A DNA stretch of 64,000 nucleotides from an uncultured Clostridia bacterium (GTDB taxonomy: Bacteria; Bacillota; Clostridia; Oscillospirales; Ruminococcaceae), in NCBI GenBank assembly GCA_947625125.1, contig CANQNF010000016.1, forward strand, positions 1 to 64,000. The letters are read 5' to 3'. The notes under the pieces are model-generated. The model was not told the origin of the DNA. It did no database searches and saw only the letters and a program-made list of their open reading frames with translations. The position numbers and the translations under genes were made by a program. Positions 213 to 53,061 of the stretch are shown piece by piece. Each line of letters starts with the position of its first letter. Position 1 is the stretch's first letter.

Positions 213-668
213 TTAATAACGCGCGGCTAACTTTTCCTTCCAGCTGTCATACAGCACCTCGCCGTTCGAGCCGAGGACGATAATAAGCTCCTCGCCCTCA
301 AGCTTTTTGGAGCGCGAATCTATAGCGAGTCCCGAACCCTTGGCCGCGCCGTCCGAGTATTTATCGGCCCTCGGGAATTCTATAGCGGAATAGTCGCCGC
401 CGGGATAGGGGGCGTGCCGCAAAATGCTTAAAACCTCGGTGTCGCCGGTGAACATATACATCACTTCGCCGTCCTTGAACATATGCGCAAGGGCGTATTC
501 GGCATAGGCAACCTCTTCGGCACGGTCGGCGCGCTGCCTATCCATCGAGCGGCGCTGGGTCTCGACGAAGTGAAGCGCCACGGGGATGGAAATCGCCACG
601 ACGATGAGTATCATGATTATGACGGAAACAAGCTCGAACCGGGTGAAGCCTTTTTTTGAGTTTTTCAT
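213..668 (-). CDS. Type IV minor pilin / pseudopilin-like protein
   Basis: 151 aa. The N-terminus MKNSKKG|FTRFELVSVIIM is a prepilin peptidase substrate: basic leader, glycine at the cleavage point, glutamate at mature position 5 and a hydrophobic stretch of about 20 residues (8-30) that serves as membrane anchor and assembly helix. The rest is a small soluble head without a recognised fold. The start codon overlaps the pilC stop by 4 nt (ATGA), and GGAGG lies 6 nt upstream, so translation is probably coupled. By position it is likely a minor pilin that primes or decorates the pilus; a pseudopilin of a secretion system cannot be excluded. Confidence 0.8.
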   Translation of the reverse strand: MKNSKKGFTRFELVSVIIMILIVVAISIPVALHFVETQRRSMDRQRADRAEEVAYAEYALAHMFKDGEVMYMFTGDTEVLSILRHAPYPGGDYSAIEFPRADKYSDGAAKGSGLAIDSRSKKLEGEELIIVLGSNGEVLYDSWKEKLAARY

Positions 669-1876
669 CCGATACCTCCGTACATCTGGAACATCGGCAT
701 GTAGATAGCGATGACGATAAAGCCGATGAAAAGGCCGAGGCCGACCGTCATTATCGGCTCCAACATCGCAAGAGCCTTGGACGAGGCCTGCATGGCTTCC
801 TCGTCGTAATATGTGCCTATGGTGCCCATGGTCTCCTCAAGCGAGCCGGATTCTTCGCCGACCGCGGTCATTTCCTTGCACATGTCGGGCAGGTATTCGT
901 TTTGCTTGATGACGTCGCCGAGGCCCTTTCCGGATTCGATCTCGACGACGAGTTTTTCGACGCTCTCGCCGATGGCCTTGTTATCCATGACCTTTGAAGT
1001 GATGGACAGTACCCTCGCCATGGGTAAACCCGCGGTAAGGAGCGTCGAGAGGGTGTTTGAGAACTGGGAAGCGCCGTTCATTATGCCGATTTTGCCGATG
1101 ATGGGGATCTTGAGTTTTAATTTGGCAAGGTTCATCTCCCCGCCCGGGGTCTTGGCGTAGAGCTTGTAGGCGATGATGATTATCATCAGACCGACCAAGA
1201 GGAACGGCCAGTAGTTTACGAAGAAATCGGACACGGCCATGAGTATTCTTGTCGGCAGGGGCAGGTCCTGACCCATGTTGCCGAACAGCTCGAGCATAGT
1301 GGGCACTAACTTTACCATGACTATGCCTATAACTACGACGGCAAGAAGTATGAGGAATATCGGGTATGTAAGAGCGGAGCGGACCTTTTGCTTGACCTTA
1401 TGGGCCTTTTCGTAGTAGACGGTGAGCCTGTCGAAGCATGTCTCAAGGGTACCGGACTCCTCGCCCGCCCTGACGGTCTCGATGAACGCCACGGGGATTT
1501 TTTTGCCGTTTTTCTGGAGGCTGTGAGCCAAGCTGTAGCCGGCGTTGACGTCCTCGGAGCACTGGGTCAGAATCCTTTTCATCAGCTTGTCGGAGGACTG
1601 TGCGGCTATAAGCTCCACGACCCTGCCGATAGGGATTCCGGCACGGAGCATGATGGAAAACTGGGAAGCCGTGACCGAGAGGGTTTTATCCGCGACCCAG
1701 AGCGGCTCGTTGATGTCGATATGCTGCTTTTCCGAAGTCTTGACCTCGGATATCTTCTCTACGATAGGGCAGGTGCGTTTAATCTGCTCGACCGCGTCGA
1801 ATTCGCTGTATGCCTCGACGACTCCCGAAACAGCCACGCCGTCGGCGGTTCTCGCTTTATATTTGAATGTTGTCAT
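665..1876 (-). CDS. pilC: Type IV pilus inner-membrane platform protein PilC (GspF family)
   Basis: 403 aa, the normal length of the PilC/GspF family. Two repeated T2SSF domains are visible (about residues 65-190 and 270-395), each with the conserved cytoplasmic helical bundle (RAGIPIGRVVELIA and TAGLPMARVLSITS, each followed by ESGT/ESGS-like turns GEESGTLE and GEESGSLE). Hydrophobic membrane segments occur near 165-190, 215-235 and 370-395. PilC couples the PilB/PilT motors to pilin polymerisation. It sits 30 nt after pilT and overlaps the minor pilin by 4 nt, so it belongs to the same transcript. Confidence 0.95.
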   Translation of the reverse strand: MTTFKYKARTADGVAVSGVVEAYSEFDAVEQIKRTCPIVEKISEVKTSEKQHIDINEPLWVADKTLSVTASQFSIMLRAGIPIGRVVELIAAQSSDKLMKRILTQCSEDVNAGYSLAHSLQKNGKKIPVAFIETVRAGEESGTLETCFDRLTVYYEKAHKVKQKVRSALTYPIFLILLAVVVIGIVMVKLVPTMLELFGNMGQDLPLPTRILMAVSDFFVNYWPFLLVGLMIIIIAYKLYAKTPGGEMNLAKLKLKIPIIGKIGIMNGASQFSNTLSTLLTAGLPMARVLSITSKVMDNKAIGESVEKLVVEIESGKGLGDVIKQNEYLPDMCKEMTAVGEESGSLEETMGTIGTYYDEEAMQASSKALAMLEPIMTVGLGLFIGFIVIAIYMPMFQMYGGIG

Positions 1877-1906
1877 CTTCTCACTCCCTCGCCGGGAAAT
1901 CGGTCA

Positions 1907-2959
1907 TCAGTACATTGTATTCTTTCTGACGTATTCGTAGTCTCTTGAGGCGGCTTTTGCGACGTCCGCCGAGATTATTTTTTGTTTGTAAAGCTGTATC
2001 AGGGCGTTGTCCATCGTGATGGAGCCCTCGGCCGCGGAGGTGGATATTGCCGAGACTATCTGAGGAGTCTTGCCCTCGCGTATCAGGTTTCTTATAGCCG
2101 GCGTCACCATCATCAGTTCCGCCGCGCAGACTCTCCCGCCTGTTCTTCTCGGCAGGAGCTGCTGGGAAAGAACAGCCATCAAAGTGGTGGAAAGCTGAAG
2201 TCTTATCTGCCTCTGCCGGCCCTCGGGGAATACGTCCACGACTCTGTCCACCGATTCGGCGGCGGAGTTTGTATGTAGCGTCGCAAAGACAAGGTGTCCC
2301 GTTTCGGCGGCGGTAAGGGCCGTCTCGATGGTGTTTAGGTCTCTCATCTCGCCGATGAGTATGACGTCCGGATCCTCGCGGAGAATTGCCCGCAGGCCCG
2401 TCTCGTAGCTTTCGGTGTCGGCGCCTATTTCGCGCTGATTTATCGTGCATTTGTCGGGCGTGTAGATGTATTCTATCGGGTCCTCGAGCGTGACTATATG
2501 GTTAGGATATGTGTGATTTATTCTGTCCAAAAGGGCGGCAAGCGTGGTGGATTTGCCCGAGCCGGTCTCGCCGGTGACAAGGACGATGCCTCGGTTGAGT
2601 CCCGGGAATTTCTGCACCGCCGGAGGAAGTCCCAGATCGTCAAGATTAGGTATCCTCTCGGAGAGTATTCTTATTGCTGCGGAAATCGAGCCGCGCTGCC
2701 TGAATAAATTTATACGGCATCTTATCCCGCCGGCAAAGGTGATGGCGAGGTCCAATTCTCCGGTCTTTTCGATTTTTTTGTATTCGGCGCCGGCCATTTC
2801 ACGAGCGTAGGCTTCGCACTCGTTGTCGGTCATGACCAAATCGTCAAAATCCTGCAAATCGCCGTCTACTCTTATTCTTATCGGCAGTCCGTTTACTATA
2901 TGTATATCGGAGCCTCTTCTTGCCTTGGCCTGCTGTATAACGGTTGTTAAGTCGACCAT
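1907..2959 (-). CDS. pilT: Type IV pilus retraction ATPase PilT
   Basis: 350 aa hexameric secretion ATPase. Walker A GETGSGKS is near residue 130, Walker B/Asp box around GEMRD near 204, and the His box HTNSAAESVDR follows. The C-terminal AIRNLIREGK segment is the PilT signature that is needed for retraction and separates it from PilB. The family drives pilus depolymerisation and twitching motility. The gene lies 20 nt downstream of pilB, implying that extension and retraction motors are co-transcribed. Confidence 0.96.
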   Translation of the reverse strand: MVDLTTVIQQAKARRGSDIHIVNGLPIRIRVDGDLQDFDDLVMTDNECEAYAREMAGAEYKKIEKTGELDLAITFAGGIRCRINLFRQRGSISAAIRILSERIPNLDDLGLPPAVQKFPGLNRGIVLVTGETGSGKSTTLAALLDRINHTYPNHIVTLEDPIEYIYTPDKCTINQREIGADTESYETGLRAILREDPDVILIGEMRDLNTIETALTAAETGHLVFATLHTNSAAESVDRVVDVFPEGRQRQIRLQLSTTLMAVLSQQLLPRRTGGRVCAAELMMVTPAIRNLIREGKTPQIVSAISTSAAEGSITMDNALIQLYKQKIISADVAKAASRDYEYVRKNTMY

Positions 2960-2979
2960 GTGCCTCTCCTTAAAGTATA

Positions 2980-4677
2980 TTATTGATCAGTCGCGTTTAA
3001 TATCCTTGTCATCTCGGATACGGTCGTGATGCCCGCCTCGACGAGCTCTCTGGCGTTTTCCTGAAGCGAGCGGTAGTTGCCCTCTTTTTTGATGCACTCC
3101 ATAAGCTCGGCTCTCGGCATGTTGTCGGCTATCATGCGCTTAGACTGCTTCGAGAACAAAATTATCTCAAAGACCGCGATACGGCCGCGATAGCCGGTGT
3201 GGTAGCAGTTCGGACAGCCCTTGCCCTTGTAGACCCTGACGTTTTCGGCGCCTCTCGGCAGACCCATGCGCTCGACCTCGTCCTCGTCGGCTATATATTC
3301 CGTCTTGCAGTCGGGGCAGATACGCCTTACCAACCTCTGGGAGATGACTCCCTTGACGGCTTCGGCTATAAGATAGGGCTCGCAGCCGATGTCTAAAAGT
3401 CTGTCGAGCATCGATATAGCGGAGTTTGTATGTATCGTAGAAAGGACGTAGTGTCCGGTGATAGCGGCTCTTAAGGCGATCTCTGCGGTCTCGCCGTCGC
3501 GTATCTCGCCCACGGCTATGATGTCCGGGTCCTGACGTAAAATCGAACGCAGACCGTTTGCAAAGGTCATGCCGACCTTGTCGTTTATCTGCACCTGGTT
3601 CACGCCGTCGATGTTGTACTCGACCGGGTCCTCGAGCGTGACGAGGTTGACTTCCTCGACGTTCAAGGTGTTTATCATCGTATACATCGTAGAAGACTTA
3701 CCGGAACCGGTAGGACCGACTATCAGCACCATGCCGTCGGAGTTCTCCATGAGAAGATTGAATTTTTTCAGGTTCTCGCCGAACAGTCCAAGGCTGTCGG
3801 CCTTTAAAAGCTGCGCGCTCTTATTCAAAAGACGTATCGTTATCTTCTCGCCGTAAATCGTCGGCAGGGTCGATACACGAAGGTCTATCTCGACGCCCTT
3901 GACCCGAACGTTCGCACGGCCGTCCTGTGGGGCGCGCCTTTCGGTAAGGTCGAGGTTTGACATGACTTTGATTCTTGAAATGACCGAGCCCATGAGGTCC
4001 TTCGGGACCGTTAATATCTGCCTCAAAACGCCGTCGATACGCATTCTGACGACCATTTCTTTCTCACGGGGCTCCATATGTATATCCGAGGCGCGCTCGG
4101 TGACGGCGCGCTCGATTATCGAGTTTACAAGCCTTACGGTAGGAGCGGTTATCGACTCGTCGACTATCTCCTGGGCCTCCGAGACCTGGACGTTGGCGGC
4201 AGCTCCGCCGCCCTCGTTTCTCATCTCCTCGATGGCTCTTGCGGCGCCCTCGTTTCCGTAGAGGGTGGCTATCGCCTTATCGACCGCCGCAGACTGGGCT
4301 ATTCTCGGGGAGACTCTCTTTCTCGTGGCCGTTCTTACTTCGTCGATGGCAACGAAGTTCATCGGATCGACCATCGCAAGGACAAGCTCGTCCTTGTTGA
4401 GGCGAAGCGGCACTACGCTGTGCTTCTTGGCGATGTTTTTCGGCAGAATTCTCGCCATCTCGGTCGGAATGTGCTCTTTAGTGAGGTCGACGTATTTAAT
4501 GCCGAGCTGCTGGCTCATCGCGTCGATGAAATCCTGTTCGGTGATGATACCGCTGTCTATGAGCACGGTGCCGAGGCGCTGCTTAGACTGCTTCTGTATT
4601 TCGAGCGCTTTTTGCAGCTGCGCATCATCTATTAAACCGGCGGCCTTGAGAAGATCGCCGAGACGCATATATGCCAT
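2980..4677 (-). CDS. pilB: Type IV pilus assembly ATPase PilB
   Basis: 565 aa. An N-terminal MshEN/GspE-N domain (about 1-150) precedes the GspE ATPase core: Walker A GPTGSGKSS (321-329), Walker B with AVGEIRD (about 389-394), His box STIHTNSA, and a C-terminal zinc-binding tetracysteine (C454, C457, C488, C491). MshEN domains bind cyclic di-GMP in some relatives; whether this one does cannot be read reliably here. It powers pilin polymerisation. First gene of the pilus operon, with a good promoter 110 bp upstream. Confidence 0.96.
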   Translation of the reverse strand: MAYMRLGDLLKAAGLIDDAQLQKALEIQKQSKQRLGTVLIDSGIITEQDFIDAMSQQLGIKYVDLTKEHIPTEMARILPKNIAKKHSVVPLRLNKDELVLAMVDPMNFVAIDEVRTATRKRVSPRIAQSAAVDKAIATLYGNEGAARAIEEMRNEGGGAAANVQVSEAQEIVDESITAPTVRLVNSIIERAVTERASDIHMEPREKEMVVRMRIDGVLRQILTVPKDLMGSVISRIKVMSNLDLTERRAPQDGRANVRVKGVEIDLRVSTLPTIYGEKITIRLLNKSAQLLKADSLGLFGENLKKFNLLMENSDGMVLIVGPTGSGKSSTMYTMINTLNVEEVNLVTLEDPVEYNIDGVNQVQINDKVGMTFANGLRSILRQDPDIIAVGEIRDGETAEIALRAAITGHYVLSTIHTNSAISMLDRLLDIGCEPYLIAEAVKGVISQRLVRRICPDCKTEYIADEDEVERMGLPRGAENVRVYKGKGCPNCYHTGYRGRIAVFEIILFSKQSKRMIADNMPRAELMECIKKEGNYRSLQENARELVEAGITTVSEMTRILNATDQ

Positions 4678-42474: not shown

Positions 42475-42497
42475 AGAAAGGTCACGGCGAGAAAAAA

Positions 42498-42735
42498 CTA
42501 AAAAGTTCGCCAGCCTTTCAAGGCTGCGGGGGTCTCGGGGGCAGTAGAACAGTTGCGTAAAAACTTGCTGCTCCAAAGCTTCGCCGGAGCTTTGGAGCAG
42601 AGTTTTAAGCGCAAGTTCTCCCTGGTCGCAGCCCGCAGGCTGCGAAATCCCCCGGCTCCGAAAAGGATGCCGTCAGGCATCGTTTTCGGAGTTCTAAAAA
42701 AGCGCAGGAAAGGGAGCAAAAACAGTCCGGTGGAC
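42498..42735. repeat. Hairpin-mosaic repeat, copy 1
   Basis: A chain of hairpins whose conserved blocks recur at 47802-47970: CTAAAAAGTTCGCCAGCC with AGCCTTTCAAGGCT, CGCAGCCCGCAGGCTGCG, and CTCCGAAAA ... TTTTCGGAG around ATGCC-GTCA-GGCAT, then GCGCAGGA and GTCCGGTGGAC. Between the first and second blocks this copy has its own long hairpin (CTGCTCCAAAGCT / AGCTTTGGAGCAG, 42569-42601), absent from copy 2, which has a different hairpin there. Confidence 0.8.
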
Positions 42736-43182
42736 GGGTTATTATATTTAGGTTCGGCGAAGACGAAGTCTTCGCTAAGCGACACTATCAAAATGAAAAA
42801 ATTTGAAGAATGTAAAGAGTGTCGCTTGAAACCACTCGCCGGGGGCTTCCCCGACCCGACGGCAGCCACTGCCGTCGGGCTTCGCGAAAGGGGTTCGGGG
42901 AAAACACCTTGCAAAGGGGTTTTCCCCGAAAGCTGCCGGTCTGCAGAAAGCCCGAGCGAGCGAACGCGGCAGCGTTCGCGAGCGAGGGGGAGAGGCACTG
43001 AAGTAAAAGTCAGCGCAGGCTCCCCTCCCCCCTTGGGGGAGGGGTTGAGGGAGGGGGTACTTAAAATAGCATGAGCGCGAAGCGCGAATACCTTTTCCCC
43101 GCTCAGCCCCCCGCCCATCTCACGTTTTCAGGCGGCAAGCGCCGCTTAATATATTACACTATTTTTAAGGAGAGCATTAAAA
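42736..43182. other. Repeat-rich gap before the ABC operon
   Basis: No gene is supported. Hairpins of CCCGACGGCA/TGCCGTCGGG type and a long imperfect stem TTCGGGGAAAAC ... GTTTTCCCCGAA are visible at about 42860-42940; related TCGGGGAAAACCC units occur twice at 48047-48178. The C-rich palindrome and ACTTAAAATAGC core follow at 43023-43094. Confidence 0.6.
43023..43094 (+). repeat. ACTTAAAATAGC core element, copy b
   Basis: C-rich/G-rich palindrome (CCTCCCCCCTTGGGGGAGG) and then ACTTAAAATAGCATGAGCG, CGAAGCGCGAATACCTT (43059-43094), nearly the same as copy a at 39044-39079. Confidence 0.8.
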
Positions 43183-45675: not shown

Positions 45676-46608
45676 TTAAACGCTGTACTTATCGTGGTCG
45701 CAGCGTATCTCGGTCGTTACTTTGCCGGCGCTGCCCTCGACCTTAAAGCCGCAGACCGTCCCCGAAAATCCCTCGGACGGGACTGTAACGCCGTCCAAAA
45801 GCTCGACCTTTTTGTACCCGTAAAAGCCGAATATGTCGCAGTTTAGGCTCCTCATCGAGAAATCGCCCCTCGCCTCAAGGCCCTCGTTCGGGTCCATTAT
45901 CCACTCGCGGTCAAAGGGTATCTCCCTGACCCGCGTTATGCCCTTTCTTGTGGCGACGGAGTTTGTATAGCTGTACCCCTCGCCCTCGCCGTCAATGGGT
46001 TTCATGTTTATCGACGATATTATCCTCGAATAGTCGGTGGCGTTTGAGCGGTATATAAGGTCGCCTCCGTCAAGCTCTGTCGGGGCCGCTCCCTCGGGCG
46101 GGGTTATCCTTATCTGCGCAGGCCCGTAAAGATAGGGGTATGTTTTCGCTGCGCGCCTTGAATAGCTGACTATTCCGTCCCAAAGGCTCGTGCCGTTGTA
46201 ATAATTGACATAGTTTACTACGGGCGTCCCGGTCTGGTAGGTTATGCCGGGCAGAGTCACGCCGGAGGCTGCGACAAGACCTGCAAGGTCGACGTCCGGC
46301 ACAAGTCCGTCCGCGCACTGGTTCTGCTCCAAAAGCGCCGAAATACCTTTGCTGCTTACCTTTAAAACGGTCCTGCCGTCTTTTTTCATGACAGTCGCCC
46401 CGGTCGGGTAGCCGGAATGGACGAGAACGTTGTCGATGTAAAGCATTATGGACATTATCTCGCTGAGGGCAGCGGTACGCGGGCAGTACCATTCCCCCGA
46501 AACGGCGGTGTACGGCAAAAACCGGTCCTTTTCAAATCTGAAGCTTATGCAGTCGGTGAGATTGAGCGCTCCCCTTGCAAGCCTCGCCATGAGTCTTACT
46601 GCGGTCAT
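45676..46608 (-). CDS. Phage baseplate-hub / late-control-D-like protein (putative)
   Basis: 310 aa. No sure family match, but the layout resembles tail hub proteins: an N-terminal beta-domain ending near ATVMKKDGRTVLKVSSKG, then TSLWDGIVSYSRRAAKTYPYLYG, a segment common in hub proteins where a peptide-binding or beta-barrel domain follows. C-terminal part is beta-rich. It overlaps the upstream gene by 4 nt and is the last gene of the phage-type block. An alternative is a diverged tail fibre or structural protein. Confidence 0.5.
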   Translation of the reverse strand: MTAVRLMARLARGALNLTDCISFRFEKDRFLPYTAVSGEWYCPRTAALSEIMSIMLYIDNVLVHSGYPTGATVMKKDGRTVLKVSSKGISALLEQNQCADGLVPDVDLAGLVAASGVTLPGITYQTGTPVVNYVNYYNGTSLWDGIVSYSRRAAKTYPYLYGPAQIRITPPEGAAPTELDGGDLIYRSNATDYSRIISSINMKPIDGEGEGYSYTNSVATRKGITRVREIPFDREWIMDPNEGLEARGDFSMRSLNCDIFGFYGYKKVELLDGVTVPSEGFSGTVCGFKVEGSAGKVTTEIRCDHDKYSV

Positions 46609-47354
46609 ATCTCGTCGACCCCCGAAAATTCAGCGGTTATTTCGGACATTCCGTCAGCACTGCCCGAAATTTTCAGGCTTTTGAGCATCATCCCCGAAAA
46701 GTCCGTGCCCGCGACGTTAAGGGGACTGACGGCAGTCCCCAAGAGGGGTTTAAGCGCCGAATAGACCGCCATGCCCCCGCGGTTTACGCTTCCTTTTACG
46801 GTAAGGGCCTCCGGCAGATTTCCTATCTTTCGGGTCCTTATCGTTCCGTTCATAAGAGGCGTGTCGGCGGTTTTTACGCTTCCCGATACCTCGAAGCCGG
46901 TCATGCAGCTGTAGCTGACGCCGGCTGCCGAAAATTCAACGGAGTGAAGTATTCCCGTGCCCGAAAGGCCGGCGCAGAATGTGAGTTCGGCAGAGACGAT
47001 GTATCCGCCATGCTCGCGGGAAAACTCGCAGGGAAGCCTTTTTACGGTCTTTATCTCGCCTCTGCAGAGCCCGAGGGCCGGAAGCGCTCTCTCGTCAAAA
47101 ATGCCGCAAAGTTCCTTGGCGCCCATGCCTCTTTTGCCGTAGAGACTGACGGAATAAACGACTTCGCATTTCGTCAGAATGCCGCCTGAGCCGTCCGAGA
47201 CCGTTTCCTTGCAGGTGACGCTGCCTATGCCGCCGAAAAGCAAAAGCTCGTTTCGGTGTTCGTATACTGGCAGGTCCGCAAAGAGGTCGTGAACGCTGCC
47301 GAAGCCGGAAACAAGGGCGTTTACGACGGGCGTAAGCTCGGCTTCAAACATCAT
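46605..47354 (-). CDS. Phage tail-type structural protein (putative)
   Basis: 249 aa, not confidently recognised. The first about 130 residues (KCEVVYSVSLYGKRGMGAKE, CGIFDERALPAL) have the pattern of tail terminator or head-tail joining proteins, and the rest (GVSYSCMTGFEVSGSVKTAD, later TDFSGMMLKSLKISGSADG) is beta-rich like a tail tube protein, so it may be a fusion. Overlaps both neighbours by 4 nt, indicating one translational unit. Confidence 0.5.
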   Translation of the reverse strand: MMFEAELTPVVNALVSGFGSVHDLFADLPVYEHRNELLLFGGIGSVTCKETVSDGSGGILTKCEVVYSVSLYGKRGMGAKELCGIFDERALPALGLCRGEIKTVKRLPCEFSREHGGYIVSAELTFCAGLSGTGILHSVEFSAAGVSYSCMTGFEVSGSVKTADTPLMNGTIRTRKIGNLPEALTVKGSVNRGGMAVYSALKPLLGTAVSPLNVAGTDFSGMMLKSLKISGSADGMSEITAEFSGVDEI

Positions 47355-47719
47355 CCCGCGACCCCCTCAAAGACAAAGCCGCCGTCGGTGATAAGGCCGG
47401 CGGGGAGGGCGGCTAAGGACTGCTGCCAAAGATTTTCGGCAAATTTCACGGTGCCGCTGTCGGAGGTCTTGGCAAAGAGCCCGCCGGTTTTCGAGGAATA
47501 GGTTTTTTCGCTTGCGGCGATGAGGACCGCATAGTCGTAAAACGCCTTGCAGGCGGCCGCGTATTCGCAAAGGGGAATTTCGTCCCCCTCGGGGTCGCGG
47601 TTCAAAAGCCGGGTAAAGCAGGCCTCTGCGCTTGATATCAGAGCGGAGTAGGAGGCCGCCTCATCGGGAGCGAGGTGTGAAAGCTCGCAGAATCTTGCGG
47701 TAATATTTTCTTTTACCAT
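47351..47719 (-). CDS. Head-tail connector-like small protein (putative)
   Basis: 122 aa, helical. Short size, the position directly after the capsid gene and the pattern of alternating helices (CEYAAACKAFYDYAVLIAAS, AENLWQQSLAALP) fit HK97 gp6-type head-tail connectors. Start ATG at 47719 has GGAGAA upstream. Separated from the capsid gene by 496 bp of repeats, unusual in a phage operon. Confidence 0.55.
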   Translation of the reverse strand: MVKENITARFCELSHLAPDEAASYSALISSAEACFTRLLNRDPEGDEIPLCEYAAACKAFYDYAVLIAASEKTYSSKTGGLFAKTSDSGTVKFAENLWQQSLAALPAGLITDGGFVFEGVAG

Positions 47720-48215
47720 GGTTGTTCTCCTTTTTTCAGTAGTGGGCGGGAATATTGAGCGATATTTAAAAGTTTTCGTTCAAGCCCGAATTAAGCGAAA
47801 TCTAAAAAGTTCGCCAGCCTTTCAAGGCTGCAGGGTCCAGGGACAGAGTCCCTGGTCGCAGCCCGCAGGCTGCGAAATCCCCCGCCTCCGAAAAGGATGC
47901 CGTCAGGCATCGTTTTCGGAGGCTTTTTTTAAAAAGCGCAGGAGGGTAGGCAAAATCTGTCCGGTGGACAGTTTTGCCGTAGGGGACCCTCGCCGGGGGT
48001 CCCCTATGCGGCGAGCGCGAATGCGCGAGCCGCACTCGGAAAAGGGCTCGGGGAAAACCCCGCAGGGTTGTCCCCGAACCGACGGCAGGTACTGCCGTCG
48101 GGCGCTCGAAAAAGGCCTCGGGGAAAACCCTGCAAGGGTTGTCCCCGACCGGACGGCAGGCGCCTGCCGCCCGGCAATCGTAAACTCCCGCCCTTAATAT
48201 TTATCGCCTATAGGC
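47720..48215. other. Repeat-filled gap inside the phage-type gene block
   Basis: Holds hairpin-mosaic copy 2 (47802-47970), further palindromes and two imperfect tandem copies of a 70-bp unit (48047-48116 and 48117-48178) beginning CTCGGGGAAAACCC and ending in a GACGGCAGG ... CTGCCG hairpin. No coding frame is supported. Confidence 0.75.
47802..47970. repeat. Hairpin-mosaic repeat, copy 2
   Basis: Same conserved hairpin blocks and order as 42498-42735 (AGCCTTTCAAGGCT; CGCAGCCCGCAGGCTGCG; CTCCGAAAA ... TTTTCGGAG; GCGCAGGA; GTCCGGTGGAC), but with a CCAGGGAC/GTCCCTGG hairpin where copy 1 has another. Blocks are nearly identical in sequence, so the two copies are recent or under exchange. Confidence 0.8.
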
Positions 48216-49196
48216 TCAGTTTCCCTTGAGCTTCATGACGGCTACTGCGCCGCCGTAGATCTTTGCAAAGCCCACGGATATGCTGAACGCGATGCTGTCG
48301 ATCTGGTTCGAGATGAGCTTCTCACTGTCGATGACAACGTCGGAGCCGAATACGGCTTCGAGCGCGCTCGTCTGGTCCACGCCGATGACGGTGTCCGCCT
48401 CAAGGCCGGGACACTTGACAAGCTTGACCCCGAACGGAGTAGTGACGACGCCGTCGCCGCTGCCCTCGCAGTCGCTCATCTCGGTGAGTGAGAGAATGTT
48501 CGCCATCATGGCGGGAGAGACGAGCATGGCGGTCATGTTGCGGTCCTTAAGGCTTGCCCAGAACGAGGCGAGATCCGCATAGGTTATGGCGGTGCCGGCA
48601 GTCTCGGTCGGCTCGACGCCGTTTGAGAGGACAGCCGCTGCCGCGCCGTTGATATAACCGGAAATTCTCGCGCCGACGGATTTTAATACCACGCCGAACA
48701 GATCGAGGCGCTGCTTTCTTAAGACCTCGTAGACGGTGTTTATCTGCCTGCCGTACTTGGAAACGGTAACGGCCGCGGAGTTGTTGGTGACGGTGGTCGT
48801 CGGCAGAGCGGCTCCCTCGGCGACGGTCTTGACCTCGGCGGAGGAATCCGAATCGGTCAGGGTAACGCCGTGGTAGTCTATGCCGTCGGTGTAGGTCCTT
48901 GCCGCTACGACGTAGGGCAGGACGGAGGCCTGGTCCATGCCCGCCTTTATGCAGCGGCGGACAAACTCGGGGAACAGAACGGCCGACTGGGTGGTGGAGA
49001 AGAATTTCTCGACCCTGTCGGAATCGGGGCCGGAGACCTTGATGTCGAATCTCTTGAGCTGGCGCTCGAAAGCGTCGAGGCCCTCGAGGTCGGTGCCGAC
49101 GTAGTTTTCGTCGCGGTCGAGTTCTGTAAGAGCCTCGGTGAAGCTCTTGCCGGTGATGTTGTAAAGTCCTTTTTCAAGTGTGATTTCGTTATACAT
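48216..49196 (-). CDS. Phage-type major capsid protein (HK97 fold, putative)
   Basis: 326 aa from ATG 49196 (AAAGGAAA upstream; a longer frame is not supported). Features of HK97-like capsid proteins: helical N-arm region, spine-helix region (VLFPEFVRRCIKAGMD), then VSKYGRQINTVYEVLRKQ and P-domain-like DLASFWASLKDRN, and a C-terminal beta segment with SISVGFAKIYGGAVAVM. The N-terminus lacks an obvious long delta domain; a separate protease/scaffold gene lies upstream. Confidence 0.8.
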   Translation of the reverse strand: MYNEITLEKGLYNITGKSFTEALTELDRDENYVGTDLEGLDAFERQLKRFDIKVSGPDSDRVEKFFSTTQSAVLFPEFVRRCIKAGMDQASVLPYVVAARTYTDGIDYHGVTLTDSDSSAEVKTVAEGAALPTTTVTNNSAAVTVSKYGRQINTVYEVLRKQRLDLFGVVLKSVGARISGYINGAAAAVLSNGVEPTETAGTAITYADLASFWASLKDRNMTAMLVSPAMMANILSLTEMSDCEGSGDGVVTTPFGVKLVKCPGLEADTVIGVDQTSALEAVFGSDVVIDSEKLISNQIDSIAFSISVGFAKIYGGAVAVMKLKGN

Positions 49197-49218
49197 AGTT
49201 AAATTTCCTTTCTTTTTT

Positions 49219-50064
49219 TCATATTCTGAACGCCGATGATTTCTTTGGATCCGTGCGTTCGGCACTGTTTTTTTCTATGGCTTTTTCAAGCTCGGAGGCT
49301 CCCGGGATGAGCTTTTTTGACAGCTCTTTTTTTATTTTCAGGAGTTCCTCCGGCTCCATTTTTTCTAACGCGGCCTTTACCGCTTGGGACGATATGCTGC
49401 CGTCCTCGACAAAGGAAAGCCTCATGACGTCCTTTCTCAGTTCCTCCGCCATGGCCTCAAAAAGACCCTGTTCGGGAGATGATTTTTCATTCTCGGGGCC
49501 GTGGCAGCGCTTGGTTACGCCTGCGGCCTTTTGGGCGGGGACCGCCACGAAGCTCCACTCGTATGCGTCGATGGGGTCCTTTAAAAGACGGAAGCAGAGC
49601 CTGCCGTTGTAGGTTTTTCCCTTTTTGTGGAAGCATCCGCCGTTTTTGCGGTCGCTGCCGCATATCGAGCAGACCTCTTTTCCTACCGAGCATCCCACCG
49701 AGACCTCTTTTTTTATTCCCGCGTCTATCTCTTTAATAAGATCGGCGTTTGAAGAAGTCCTCACCATATATGCGTTGGCCTTTAAATAGGTGTACTGCTC
49801 GCCGTCGGCAGTCTTTCGGTCGGGGTCTGTGACGACCTCGGTCTCATATATCCGCGCGGTCTGGTTCTCGCCCTTGGGGTCATGGTTGAATATCCCCGTC
49901 TTGCCGACGAACATCGCCGCCAACTTCTTAAGGGATTCCACCGTGAATTTTTCCAAGTCTCTGTCTATCTCGTTGTCGCAGAGGATGACCGGGAAAGAGT
50001 ATATCTCCTCCTCTTTTAATTCTCTGCGGCTGAATCGGTTGATTTTGTCAAGCTTTGACTCCAA
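49219..50064 (-). CDS. Phage-type prohead protease / scaffold protein (putative)
   Basis: 281 aa from TTG 50064 (AGGAGG 9 nt upstream), overlapping the portal gene by 17 nt. The first 190 aa resemble phage prohead serine proteases, including FNHDPKGENQTARIY (candidate catalytic His) and EWSFVAVPAQKAAGVTKR. It also has a CSICGSD ... GCFHKK cysteine/histidine cluster, possibly zinc-binding. The last 90 aa are charged and helical, like a scaffold domain. Placement between portal and capsid supports this. Confidence 0.7.
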   Translation of the reverse strand: MESKLDKINRFSRRELKEEEIYSFPVILCDNEIDRDLEKFTVESLKKLAAMFVGKTGIFNHDPKGENQTARIYETEVVTDPDRKTADGEQYTYLKANAYMVRTSSNADLIKEIDAGIKKEVSVGCSVGKEVCSICGSDRKNGGCFHKKGKTYNGRLCFRLLKDPIDAYEWSFVAVPAQKAAGVTKRCHGPENEKSSPEQGLFEAMAEELRKDVMRLSFVEDGSISSQAVKAALEKMEPEELLKIKKELSKKLIPGASELEKAIEKNSAERTDPKKSSAFRI

Positions 50065-51229
50065 TGCTTTGTTCCTCCTTTATGTTTGAAAGTTCTATCG
50101 CCCTTGCCTGAGCGTTTCTTAGGCGTGCAAGAGCAAGCTCGGTCTCGTCCTGGAGATTTATGTTGTCCCAGTCTATCCTTACCTCGCCGGTGCCGCCCAA
50201 GAGTCTTAAGTGAGCGCCGCATATTTTTTCAAGCGCAGGGCTCATCAGCCTGCGGTAATACTCAAGCTCGCTCGTGAGAATATCGGCCTGCTGGCTCGAC
50301 ATCCTCTCCGAAGTCGACCAGCTCAGCCCCAAAAGATAGGGCGGTATGCCGAGCTTCGAGATAAGCTGCTCCAAAAGCTGGCGGACGGGTATCTCGGTGT
50401 CAAGTATCTGGTTGTCGGCGCCTATCGCCCTGACCGATACGTCCCCGACGGCGACGAAATCCCTGACGTCTCCAGCCTTTGAAGCGCTCATTCCCGCAGA
50501 CCATTCCTTGGCTATCTGCTGGGCGCGCTCCTTGGCAAAAGCCCGATCGCCCGCGTCTCCCGAGGGTTTATAGGTGACGGCGTAGCGCACGTTCCCCACT
50601 CGGTCGAAGTTCTGACCCACGCAGTCGTATATCCTTAAAAGTATCGCAGAGAGCGAGGGCAGGCCGCGAAGAATGGATACCCCGAAAGGCTGCTCTGGGG
50701 TAGGGGCATGCGCCAAAAATATCAGATTTTCCGGCCTTGATACGGCTATCGGGGTATTTCTTTCATGAAGATAATACTCCCTGCCGTCGACTCCCTTTTT
50801 TCTCACGTCAAGCTTTCTCATCGGTGCGACGTAGACCCCCGAGACCCCTCTGAAATTTTCGTCGGGAATTATCTCGGCAAGGGCCGAACCGGACGTCAAA
50901 AGAGAGTCCATGCAGCAGTCCAAGAACGTGTTAAGGCCGTTTCCCGAAGCGCCGATTTTTACGTCGCGGGAAAAGCGGTCGAGCTCGTCCTGCAAACTCT
51001 CGTCCGATGACACCGCCCGAAATCCCCCGATAAGGCGGATTATTTTTTCTATGCATGCGTCAATTATCGGGACGTTTTCCCGAAGCCTGTAGTAGAGCTC
51101 CTTTTCGCCGAGGGCCCCCTCCGTCCTGAAAAAGCCGGAGGACGTATCTCTTTGCGCCGTCCCGACAGCGTCCTGCTCAAAACGAGGAGAAGCCGTCTTA
51201 GGAGGCTCGGCTTTTTTAAATAATGCCAA
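50048..51229 (-). CDS. Phage-type portal protein
   Basis: 393 aa from a TTG at 51229 with AAAGGAG 11 nt upstream. Portal features: NVPIIDACIEKIIRLIGGF (N-terminal clip/stem start), YVAPMRKLDVRKKG, PFGVSILRGLPS, and RQLLEQLISKLGIPPYLLGLS followed by the stem/tunnel helix region (SSQQADILTSELEYYRRLMSPALEK). It forms the ring through which the terminase packages DNA. Length is at the short end for portals. Confidence 0.88.
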   Translation of the reverse strand: MALFKKAEPPKTASPRFEQDAVGTAQRDTSSGFFRTEGALGEKELYYRLRENVPIIDACIEKIIRLIGGFRAVSSDESLQDELDRFSRDVKIGASGNGLNTFLDCCMDSLLTSGSALAEIIPDENFRGVSGVYVAPMRKLDVRKKGVDGREYYLHERNTPIAVSRPENLIFLAHAPTPEQPFGVSILRGLPSLSAILLRIYDCVGQNFDRVGNVRYAVTYKPSGDAGDRAFAKERAQQIAKEWSAGMSASKAGDVRDFVAVGDVSVRAIGADNQILDTEIPVRQLLEQLISKLGIPPYLLGLSWSTSERMSSQQADILTSELEYYRRLMSPALEKICGAHLRLLGGTGEVRIDWDNINLQDETELALARLRNAQARAIELSNIKEEQSIGVKA

Positions 51230-51266
51230 ATAATTTTCAGCTCCTTTTTTATTTTTTCATCTATGT

Positions 51267-52526
51267 TCAGGGAGCGCTTCGGCTGACGCTGAAGCAGTAA
51301 AGCCCGTCGCCGGGGCGTTCCCGTAAGAATCCCGAGACAAAATAACGCAGGTCGTCCATAGCGTGATCGTTTTCCTTTACGACCGCGTCCCTGCCGCTTC
51401 TCGGGTCCCAGCGGTAGGTCTCGAATTCCCTTATGCAGTCCCGGCAGCTCTCGTGAATGAGTATGCCGCCTGACCTTAAGGCGTCGCCGACTCTTCTTAT
51501 GCCGCTTAAAACGTCGTTGTCGGCGGGAATGACGTTAAAGCGTCCGTGCCGTCTTATGCACTCGATAAAGCTTGCCGCAGACGGGTCGACGATGACGGCC
51601 TCGACGGCGCGGTCCCCTATCAGCTCCTCGAGAGCGCTGTAGTGCTCTTCATCGGTCCTTTGGAAGCCCTCGCGCTTTGAGCTGTAGTAGTATTCCGATA
51701 TGCGGTACCACACGCCGCCGGATTCTCCCCAAAGTCCGAAAGAGGCGGGATTTACGGTGCCGTAGTCGCAGCTTACCGCAAACCTTTCGCACTCGGGAAT
51801 TTCGGATACGACGTGCTTTTCCCGCGAAAACATCGGGTAGACCGTGCCGGAAAGGGCCGTCCATCTGCCCTGAACGAAGCGCCGGTAGAACGCTCCGCTG
51901 TAGAGCTTCTCATAACGCTTTCTCACTTCGTCCGACAGGGACGGGTTGTCCTCCATCGTGAAGTGAAGATAGAGGGCGTTTTTCTCGTCGGCCTTTTTTA
52001 TCCACTCGGTATAAAACCAGTGGGACGGGTTGTCGGGGTTGCAGTTGAACCAGAGCTTAGAGTCCCGAAGCGAGCATCGGGCTATGGCCTGCTCGACAAA
52101 CGACCTCGGCATTAAAGCTACCTCGTCAAGAAGCACCCCGCCGAGGGTCATGCCCTGAATTAAAGAAGCAGAGCCCTCGTCCTTGCCGCCGAAAAGATAG
52201 AAGCGGTTTTTCCTGTCGCGATGAGATATCGTAAAGAGATTCCGTGAGGGTTTATAGTCGACTCTGAAACCTCCGCCGGAAAAATACTTCGTGATATCAA
52301 GGGCGATATTTCTTTTTACCGACGTGACGGTTTTTCCGCATATCGCGAAGTCCCGGTCGTTAAACACGGTCATCGCCCATAATATAAAGGAAATGCCCAT
52401 CGAAACGGTCTTGCCGCTTCTTACGGCCCCGTCGCAGATTATTGCGCAGCGGTCTTTCATGCCCGGTCTTAACCACCACGTCAGAACGAGCTGCTGCTTT
52501 TTGGAAAAGGTGTCAAACCGCCACAT
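51267..52526 (-). CDS. Phage-type terminase large subunit (PBSX family)
   Basis: 419 aa. ATPase part: DGAVRSGKTVSM (Walker A), LGGVLLDEVALMPRSFVEQA (Walker B with catalytic Glu), FNCNPDNPSHWFYTEW (coupling motif). Nuclease part: SCDYGTVNPASFGLW and VIVDPSAASFI supply the metal-binding aspartates, with NDHAMDDLRY near the end. All motor and nuclease motifs look intact. 1 nt after the small subunit gene. Confidence 0.95.
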   Translation of the reverse strand: MWRFDTFSKKQQLVLTWWLRPGMKDRCAIICDGAVRSGKTVSMGISFILWAMTVFNDRDFAICGKTVTSVKRNIALDITKYFSGGGFRVDYKPSRNLFTISHRDRKNRFYLFGGKDEGSASLIQGMTLGGVLLDEVALMPRSFVEQAIARCSLRDSKLWFNCNPDNPSHWFYTEWIKKADEKNALYLHFTMEDNPSLSDEVRKRYEKLYSGAFYRRFVQGRWTALSGTVYPMFSREKHVVSEIPECERFAVSCDYGTVNPASFGLWGESGGVWYRISEYYYSSKREGFQRTDEEHYSALEELIGDRAVEAVIVDPSAASFIECIRRHGRFNVIPADNDVLSGIRRVGDALRSGGILIHESCRDCIREFETYRWDPRSGRDAVVKENDHAMDDLRYFVSGFLRERPGDGLYCFSVSRSAP

Positions 52527-52527
52527 T

Positions 52528-53061
52528 TCAATCGCCGTCCCCGGTTGCGGAATCCTTAAGAGCCGCGAAGAAGCTGTCCGCAGAGTCGGAACCGCTCGTT
52601 CTCTCCCCTATCTCGGCAAGCCTTTTGAGGGCCTCGAGGCGGTCGAAGAATTTTATCTCGACGCCTCCGCCCTTGGCGCGTTTTATTTCCGAGACGTTGT
52701 AGAGGTCGAGGCGGGATGTGCAAAGCCCGTCGAAATCGTCGCCCAAAAGCGTGAGCGCGTCGTTGATTCTTCCGAACGCAAGTCTGCGAAGGCCTGCCAA
52801 AACTTCTGCCCGACAGGTATCCGCGCCGCCGTTTTTTTCGACATAGCTTTTTACTTTTCTCCTGGCCGCGAGCCGCAGACCCTCCCCCAATGCCTCATCG
52901 GGAGAAATTCCGAGCCGAAGCGCCGCCTCTTCGGGGCTTCCGAGCACCAAAAGAAGTTTGGCGAAGCGCTCTTCGGTCTCCGCCTCGGGATTTGATACAG
53001 GTTTTTGCGTAGCGCACCGTCCTTTCCGAAAGGGCAGATTTTTGAAAGCCCTTTCACCCAT
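52528..53061 (-). CDS. Phage-type terminase small subunit
   Basis: 177 aa. A helical DNA-binding part (FAKLLLVLGSPEEAALRLG) and an oligomerisation part with RINDALTLLGDDFDG and LDLYNVSEIKRAKGGGVEIKFFDRLEALKRLAE, typical of PBSX/XtmA-like small terminases. The start at 53061 lacks a clear ribosome binding site; the first about 20 residues are doubtful. First gene of the block, just downstream of an 8-bp inverted repeat. Confidence 0.8.
   Translation of the reverse strand: MGERAFKNLPFRKGRCATQKPVSNPEAETEERFAKLLLVLGSPEEAALRLGISPDEALGEGLRLAARRKVKSYVEKNGGADTCRAEVLAGLRRLAFGRINDALTLLGDDFDGLCTSRLDLYNVSEIKRAKGGGVEIKFFDRLEALKRLAEIGERTSGSDSADSFFAALKDSATGDGD

Follow-up and report, generated by a model that had tools for sequence, protein, structure and literature searches.

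Why would a bacterial chromosome keep an intact set of phage head and DNA-packaging genes when little else of a phage appears to accompany it? The question is raised by a block of eight genes in an uncultured member of the Ruminococcaceae, located on the minus strand at positions 45676-53061 of a 64,000-nucleotide stretch of contig CANQNF010000016.1, the whole of which is called the window here. The explanation that we consider probable is that this block is a domesticated, largely vertically inherited locus for a gene transfer agent (GTA)-like particle, derived from a contractile phage of the PBSX/D6E type and left with a collapsed tail. Domestication itself is well supported by comparative sequence data, because the block is spread as a single copy, is under purifying selection, has intact genes in 53 of 58 loci from named genomes and shares its neighbours in 8 of 14 loci from the host's own genus.

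The block consists of eight open reading frames (ORFs) arranged head to tail, and all of them are open in the window's ORF list, as expected from the original prediction of eight co-directional genes read through without frameshifts. They are given below from first to last, followed by a repeat-bearing stretch that lies outside the set.

52528..53061, minus strand: TerS, terminase small subunit, 177 amino acids (PF03592, E 1.6e-6; phrog_51, E 2e-6)
51267..52526, minus strand: TerL, terminase large subunit, 419 amino acids (TIGR01547, PBSX family, E 1.7e-54; alignment to 5oe8)
50048..51229, minus strand: portal protein, 393 amino acids (phrog_30703, E 6e-129)
49219..50064, minus strand: fourth gene, probable head protease/scaffold, a role assigned from its position, 281 amino acids (phrog_16951, E 2e-99, a family with no named function)
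48216..49196, minus strand: major capsid protein (MCP), HK97 type, 326 amino acids from the ATG (PF25209, E 3.5e-13; phrog_3922, E 5e-75)
47351..47719, minus strand: g6, predicted head-tail connector/adaptor, 122 amino acids (profile match to the connector-position gene of locus L116)
46605..47354, minus strand: g7, predicted terminator and ring/adaptor fusion, 249 amino acids (halves correspond to the separate genes R7a and R7b; fold)
45676..46608, minus strand: g8, predicted central baseplate hub, 310 amino acids (predicted fold against the PDB)
47720..48215, no strand assigned: repeat-bearing stretch in the gap between MCP and g6 (similar pieces at 42494-42930 and in related loci)

The TIGR01547 match of TerL exceeds the cut-off of that model, which places it among the PBSX-family terminases. 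Its residues 3-401 align with the solved phage terminase 5oe8 (E 1.8e-135) and, judged by eye, the P-loop and acidic nuclease motifs lie in register with that structure, so that the motor and nuclease look as intact as had been claimed; individual residues of these motifs are those that we take to be catalytic. The MCP more likely starts at 49196, with an ATG as in its homologues, than at 49265, up to which the frame stays open. Pieces similar to the repeat-bearing stretch are found at 42494-42930 of the window and in loci L024, L026 and L042, and this stretch may influence the transcription of g6, g7 and g8.

These last three genes had been labelled connector-like, tail-like and hub-like on family calls described as weak. 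The weakness stands as far as libraries are concerned, since none of the three has a match above a curated cut-off and none has any in PHROGs or NCBIfam; their roles are now clearer through profile comparisons and predicted folds, which bear out the three labels with a connector match, a terminator/ring fusion and a hub fold, respectively. In profile comparisons, g6 matches the connector-position gene of the related locus L116 (probability 97.6, E 1.5e-11), which itself has a weak match to phrog_541 (E 0.015). The N-terminal half of g7 matches R7a (probability 98.5, E 3e-14) and its C-terminal half matches R7b (probability 88.6, E 3e-7), two separate genes of Ruminococcus-type loci, and at the sequence level g7 joins in one chain two proteins that those loci encode separately. 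The predicted model of g7 (predicted local distance difference test, pLDDT, 91) finds neck and terminator proteins in the PDB (best E 2.7e-5), including lambda gpU (E 2.6e-4), and, at lower rank, baseplate chains of phages E217 and Pa193 (E 2.5e-3), the half of the protein covered by each match not being given in the output. These baseplate matches, the gene order and a weak profile match of g7 to the DNA_circ_N/LysM gene of L116 (probability 2.8, E 0.0056) together suggest a ring or adaptor domain in the C-terminal half; R7b alone does not match that gene in profile comparison. The model of g8, built with 50 relatives in the alignment (pLDDT 94.5), has contractile-system hubs among its PDB matches, the best being 3d37 (E 5e-18) and a further one gp44 of phage Mu (1wru, E 9.6e-17), and by its predicted fold g8 is the central baseplate hub of a contractile tail. 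Sequence searches with the hub and portal profiles returned no solved relatives.

Is the block peculiar to one strain, as an ordinary remnant might be? The same gene order was sought in relatives and was found, which refutes that idea. Among 25 genomes of the host's own genus, the window genome included, TerL has a match in all 25 and the eight genes are all present in 12, a thirteenth set (G020) being cut by a contig end. In a wider set from the genus, the portal was found in 15 of 31 genomes, and the two of these 15 that were read, L042 and L047, carry all eight genes. Fourteen own-genus loci were compared: the hub is full length in every one, TerS reaches 68% of its model in one (G014), the same ATP-binding cassette (ABC) transporter genes lie downstream of the block in eight, and argS lies upstream, in either orientation, in six. 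No full prophage was seen at the same site in these 14 loci, which include no other strains of the same species.

The other 12 of the 25 genomes harbour a different minimal block, termed group B, in which TerL is the sole similar gene. One copy, L013:1808-9461, has another portal (phrog_64), another scaffold and another capsid, together with a GH25 endolysin recognized by Pfam and PHROG and a small gene that is holin-like by eye. None of the 25 genomes carries both blocks, judged by TerL and portal. Group B was considered as a diverged copy of the eight-gene block, an idea rejected for the hub, 243-amino-acid and connector genes (profile probability below 1).

Beyond the genus, the counts rest on the portal profile, which was chosen over TerL because the TerL proteins of Streptococcus and Lactobacillus phages and of phage D6E are 48-50% identical to that of the window and TerL is hence not specific; TerL matches occur in 150 of 297 genomes of the order (E <= 1e-3) and in 181 of 250 genomes of family f24 (E <= 1e-60). 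Within the host's family, 91 of 197 genomes have the portal, each with one match, and they represent 43 of 84 genera. In genus g23, it is present in 92 of 100 genomes, single-copy and free of stops, and in 54 of the 55 that are of good quality (completeness of 90% or more and contamination of 5% or less). We take g23 to be Ruminococcus, since the coordinates of its portal match G767:C8:107256-108386 equal those of locus L074 in R. flavefaciens ATCC 19208. A scan of named genomes yielded at least 576 stretches with TerL relatives, of which the best 80 form the named loci, 58 of these being eligible by virtue of enough flanking DNA. In 53 of these 58 loci, each of the six head and connector genes has an intact, single reading frame, and the remaining five are deficient in TerS coverage only. 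The block adjoins dnaX-ybaB-recR in R. flavefaciens FD-1 (L054:5062-7708) and in G249 (L141:3771-6279), these gene names having Pfam support for L054 and for recR of L141.

The ratio of nonsynonymous to synonymous substitution rates (dN/dS, by the Nei-Gojobori method, NG86) is 0.04-0.27 across all eight genes in four own-genus pairs and 0.01-0.35 among the named loci, where the twelve closest pairs were compared, some with few genes. This gene-by-gene check points to purifying selection and refutes the relaxed selection that would have suggested a remnant. In three close pairs, TerL and MCP have a synonymous divergence (dS) of 0.66-1.00, close to the 0.45-0.83 of GyrB, as co-descent would predict, and over 12 genomes six genes (TerS, TerL, the fourth gene, MCP, g7 and g8) have distances that track those for GyrB (r 0.44-0.77, p <= 0.004). 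Inheritance thus appears to be mainly vertical and under purifying selection, as in a GTA, with the GyrB correlation and the shared neighbours supporting this in part.

What surrounds the block, and what is missing from it, fits the same description. Nine of ten flanking proteins scanned against the library have a match and one has none; the matches comprise RecA, RNA polymerase beta and beta′, an energy-coupling factor transporter component, a pantothenate kinase, an ABC ATPase and type II/IV secretion proteins, so that ordinary chromosomal genes do lie on both sides, as had been noted. A T2SSF and two T2SSE proteins at window positions 665-4677 are of the type IV pilus or type II secretion kind. 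In common with a GTA, intact phage-derived structural and packaging genes thus reside in the chromosome with core genes in the same window, and no replication or integration genes were found with the cluster, by a PF00589 scan for tyrosine integrases and by reading the ORFs for the rest. The scan found no PF00589 in the window and 18 places elsewhere in the genome, none on contig C16, in agreement with the claimed lack of an integrase. No serine recombinase was seen on reading the ORFs of the window, where no profile search for it was made. The repressor, replication, tape-measure and lysis genes said to be missing were likewise not seen on reading the window's ORFs, the full window not having been library-scanned. 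Among the repeats found in the suggested search for attachment-like sites, no direct repeat brackets the block with one copy on each side. The sheath profile has no match in the window, and tube and fibre genes were not seen, by reading only; the window form does not have a PBSX-like contractile tail of sheath, tube and tape measure. A search for LexA-type boxes found a single match in the window (at 33.9 kb), against 3.4 expected from chance alone. Apart from the block, the genome contains a prophage-like region, L039 (G000:C27), which has a terminase of its own and encodes a D5-type replication protein.

Where might such a tail-poor block have come from? No named phage in the phage collection carries the window portal above 29% identity: of the six portal matches, one is a Microcystis phage, at 28.6%, and the other five are uncultured contigs from faeces. 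The largest of these contigs, L120 (MT835508.1), filed as Bacteriophage sp. from human faeces, carries the block; it reads as bacterial chromosome with a ribosomal-protein operon, the gene names being given by eye. A viral contig collection yielded 350 stretches matching the portal profile, the best 80 on contigs of 2.6-30.4 kb, and six of these 80 were read in detail. Three of them, L203, L226 and L232, have a sheath (Pfam), genes that are tube-like by eye and have no Pfam confirmation, and no ORF of tape-measure size; their means of setting tail length is consequently unclear. L229 has Baseplate_J (Pfam) and no sheath-profile match. In the named locus L116, only three connector-position genes separate the capsid from the LysM gene, and Baseplate_J (E 5.5e-25), a hub match and a sheath initiator (E 4.6e-5, below its cut-off) are present with no sheath-profile match. 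Among 54 named loci with a hub and 7.5 kb or more of sequence beyond TerL, L116 is the sole exception, the sheath, gp25 and Baseplate_J profiles having no match in the other 53. Across 100 loci with both genes, the distance from capsid to hub is 1142-4377 bp (median 2045), and in none of them does an ORF of at least 400 amino acids lie between MCP and hub; in phage D6E this distance is 7966 bp, with a 785-amino-acid ORF over the annotated tape measure. Counts based on a tube profile were discarded, as the profile had drifted to other small genes and matched loci without any sheath. The relatives read as a loss series from a contractile phage of the PBSX/D6E type, in which first the tape measure, then the sheath and tube, and finally the wedge and fibres would have disappeared, a direction and order drawn from gene content, not from a tree. 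Of the tail parts, the Ruminococcus/window form is, by its gene content, reduced to connector, terminator, ring and hub, and the fusion of terminator and ring in the window suggests that the tail shaft is probably absent.

From these parts a particle can be proposed. TerS and TerL would drive DNA through the portal into an HK97-type capsid, which would mature with the fourth gene product, and the vertex would be closed by the connector, the g7 terminator/ring fusion and the hub g8. As neither tube nor sheath nor tape measure would separate these vertex parts, the particle would look tailless, and because terminator and ring share one chain and leave little room for a tube, the hub would probably sit at the neck. 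Because selection maintains the packaging motor and the capsid, filling with DNA is probably what the particle is for. Fragments of the host chromosome would be the most likely cargo, in the style of a GTA, as no integrase and, on reading, no replication genes accompany the block. Release would need a lysis route, for which no gene was seen in the block. We infer the shape of the particle, the packaging of host DNA and its delivery to other cells from this gene set.

A number of observations weigh against a domesticated GTA-like locus. A window-type portal is missing from 16 of the 31 own-genus genomes, an in-frame stop interrupts one of the 15 portal matches there (G017), and the 91 family matches include four with one in-frame stop and one fragment. 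ABC matches are missing at six of the 14 own-genus loci; the flanking sequence is short in some of the six. The comparison with GyrB distances is not significant for the portal (r 0.32, p 0.13) and g6 (r 0.35, p 0.086), the mean protein distance exceeds that of GyrB for all eight genes, most for g7 and g8, and in the three close pairs the dS of g7 and g8 (1.26-2.14) is above that of GyrB; such fast divergence makes recombination or transfer possible. Serine recombinases with Resolvase and Recombinase domains (Pfam) occur in two of the six viral loci read, at L226:447-1886, about 6 kb upstream of the block, and at L244:5286-6824, about 1.6 kb upstream, with other genes between, so that a mobile element may contain or adjoin the block in some relatives. 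Baseplate_J has no match in 11 of 14 own-genus genomes, and hence no second operon of that type was found. Genes for lysis, fibres and receptor binding are all missing from the block, lysis and fibre genes not having been sought in the remainder of the genome, and the particle, its packaged DNA and their transfer are deduced from the genes alone.

Some of these points suit other explanations. The block could encode a PBSX-like killing particle, whose DNA-filled heads and tail tip harm relatives without the locus and transfer no useful DNA. The PBSX-family TerL would agree with this, the faster evolution of g7 and g8 would fit self/non-self recognition, and PBSX packages 13-kb host DNA without transfer, according to two reports (PMC7667829; PMC12946183). 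However, the window form has no sheath-profile match, and neither a tube nor a fibre was seen in it; without a shaft, which is thus probably absent, contraction would not be possible, and the packaging genes are under strong purifying selection; we regard a killing role as unlikely. Domestication for another use, such as the release of DNA into a biofilm, a phage decoy or DNA storage, appears quite unlikely: the block gives no sign of a recipient, with fibre and receptor-binding genes not seen there, and Baseplate_J is absent from those 11 of 14 genomes, but every one of the 14 own-genus loci retains the hub, which in a tail is the part turned towards the recipient. The original prediction offered a GTA-like particle, a satellite-like particle or a DNA-filled capsid used by the host, and it is the first that fits best. 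A satellite or helper-dependent element, with its own capsids and the borrowed tails of a resident phage, or another mobile element, would have a possible partner in the prophage-like region L039 and a parallel in the serine recombinases near L226 and L244, and genes for TerS, TerL, portal, protease, capsid and connectors are likewise part of capsid-forming satellites. Yet no PF00589 integrase, no flanking repeat and, on reading, no serine recombinase, regulator or replication genes were found here, the block is single-copy in 91 of 91 family and 92 of 92 g23 genomes with a match, downstream neighbours are common to 8 of 14 own-genus loci, and the block has its own terminator-ring fusion and hub, which makes this alternative very doubtful. 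An ordinary decaying prophage remnant is highly improbable, for even if the gene set is a subset of that of a normal phage and a few relatives are fragmentary or carry a stop, the low dN/dS, the intact genes in 53 of 58 loci, the single-copy spread through 43 genera and 92 of 100 g23 genomes (54 of 55 of good quality), the divergence that tracks GyrB and the shared downstream neighbours argue, as originally predicted, for domestication.

If the block is indeed a domesticated GTA-like locus, a built-in DNA-packaging particle would be a core trait of a major group of fibre-degrading gut and rumen bacteria. It would also offer a gene-level handle on how bacterial DNA in human faeces comes to be packaged in GTA-like fashion; the Faecalibacterium operons are the only ones named for this in the sections consulted of a recent report (PMC12946183). 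How a contractile phage might be reduced to a shaft-free particle is illustrated by the fused terminator and ring and by the series of relatives with ever fewer tail parts, and the collapsed-tail model predicts a particle structure that can be tested.

How does the block compare with known systems? Phage D6E, a deep-sea thermophilic phage, and similar Firmicute phages have a TerL 49% identical over 95% and a gene order similar to that of the fuller relatives of the block; D6E differs in its annotated sheath, tape measure, baseplate, holin and endolysin and is not among the six phage records that match the window portal. PBSX of Bacillus subtilis, a GTA-like defective prophage, is resembled in the PBSX-family TerL and in relatives such as L116 and L203, in which head genes are followed by LysM/hub/gp25/Baseplate_J-type genes, in the order of the xkd operon. 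PBSX has a full contractile tail, a tape measure and lysis genes, whereas the window block has none of these and carries the terminator-ring fusion g7. RcGTA and CcGTA of the Alphaproteobacteria have the gene transfer function proposed for the block, with a separate phage origin and a tail with a tape measure. In capsid-forming phage-inducible chromosomal islands (cf-PICI), an integrase, a regulator and replication genes are expected, none of which was seen with the block, by PF00589 scan for the first and by reading for the others.

The nearest comparison by host is with FpGTA, an operon pair of Faecalibacterium, within GTA-like packaging described in January 2026 for Ruminococcaceae and Oscillospiraceae (PMC12946183). 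Its particles measure 40 nm, have no identifiable tail and hold about 9 kb of DNA, and operon I is present in all twelve Faecalibacterium genomes examined there (PMC12946183). Both systems have a Ruminococcaceae host and a small chromosomal capsid and packaging operon without replication genes, and the window particle, too, would lack a visible tail; they differ in that FpGTA I comprises ten ORFs and FpGTA II, a second operon, encodes a baseplate, fibre, holin and endolysin (PMC12946183). Baseplate_J, as noted above, has no match in 11 of 14 own-genus genomes, and the baseplate of FpGTA II need not be of that family. Our comparison was made with the description of FpGTA and with a putative FpGTA I-like locus, L126. 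L126:4454-14237, from a large genus of the host's family, is a podovirus-like block of ten ORFs in 9.8 kb with a layout like that of FpGTA I; it differs from the window block in its portal (phrog_156) and capsid (phrog_1357) and in having an internal virion protein (phrog_511), and only its TerL resembles a collected phage family. On that description and this putative locus, the block is apparently distinct from FpGTA. No account of it is evident in titles and abstract openings of the open-licence literature, and it is apparently new in its lineage and in its tail-shaft-free architecture. Klieve, in 2005, is said to have described a DNA transfer system in rumen Ruminococcus. R. callidus packages 4.6-kb fragments, for which the sections consulted of the recent report name no operon (PMC12946183). 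We put forward, as a tentative possibility, that the window represents the most reduced branch of an old GTA family of Ruminococcaceae and neighbouring families, core in Ruminococcus, in which the shaft was deleted, terminator and ring were fused and the capsid ends in a hub, and that this would be the cluster behind the 4.6-kb packaging of R. callidus and possibly Klieve's system.

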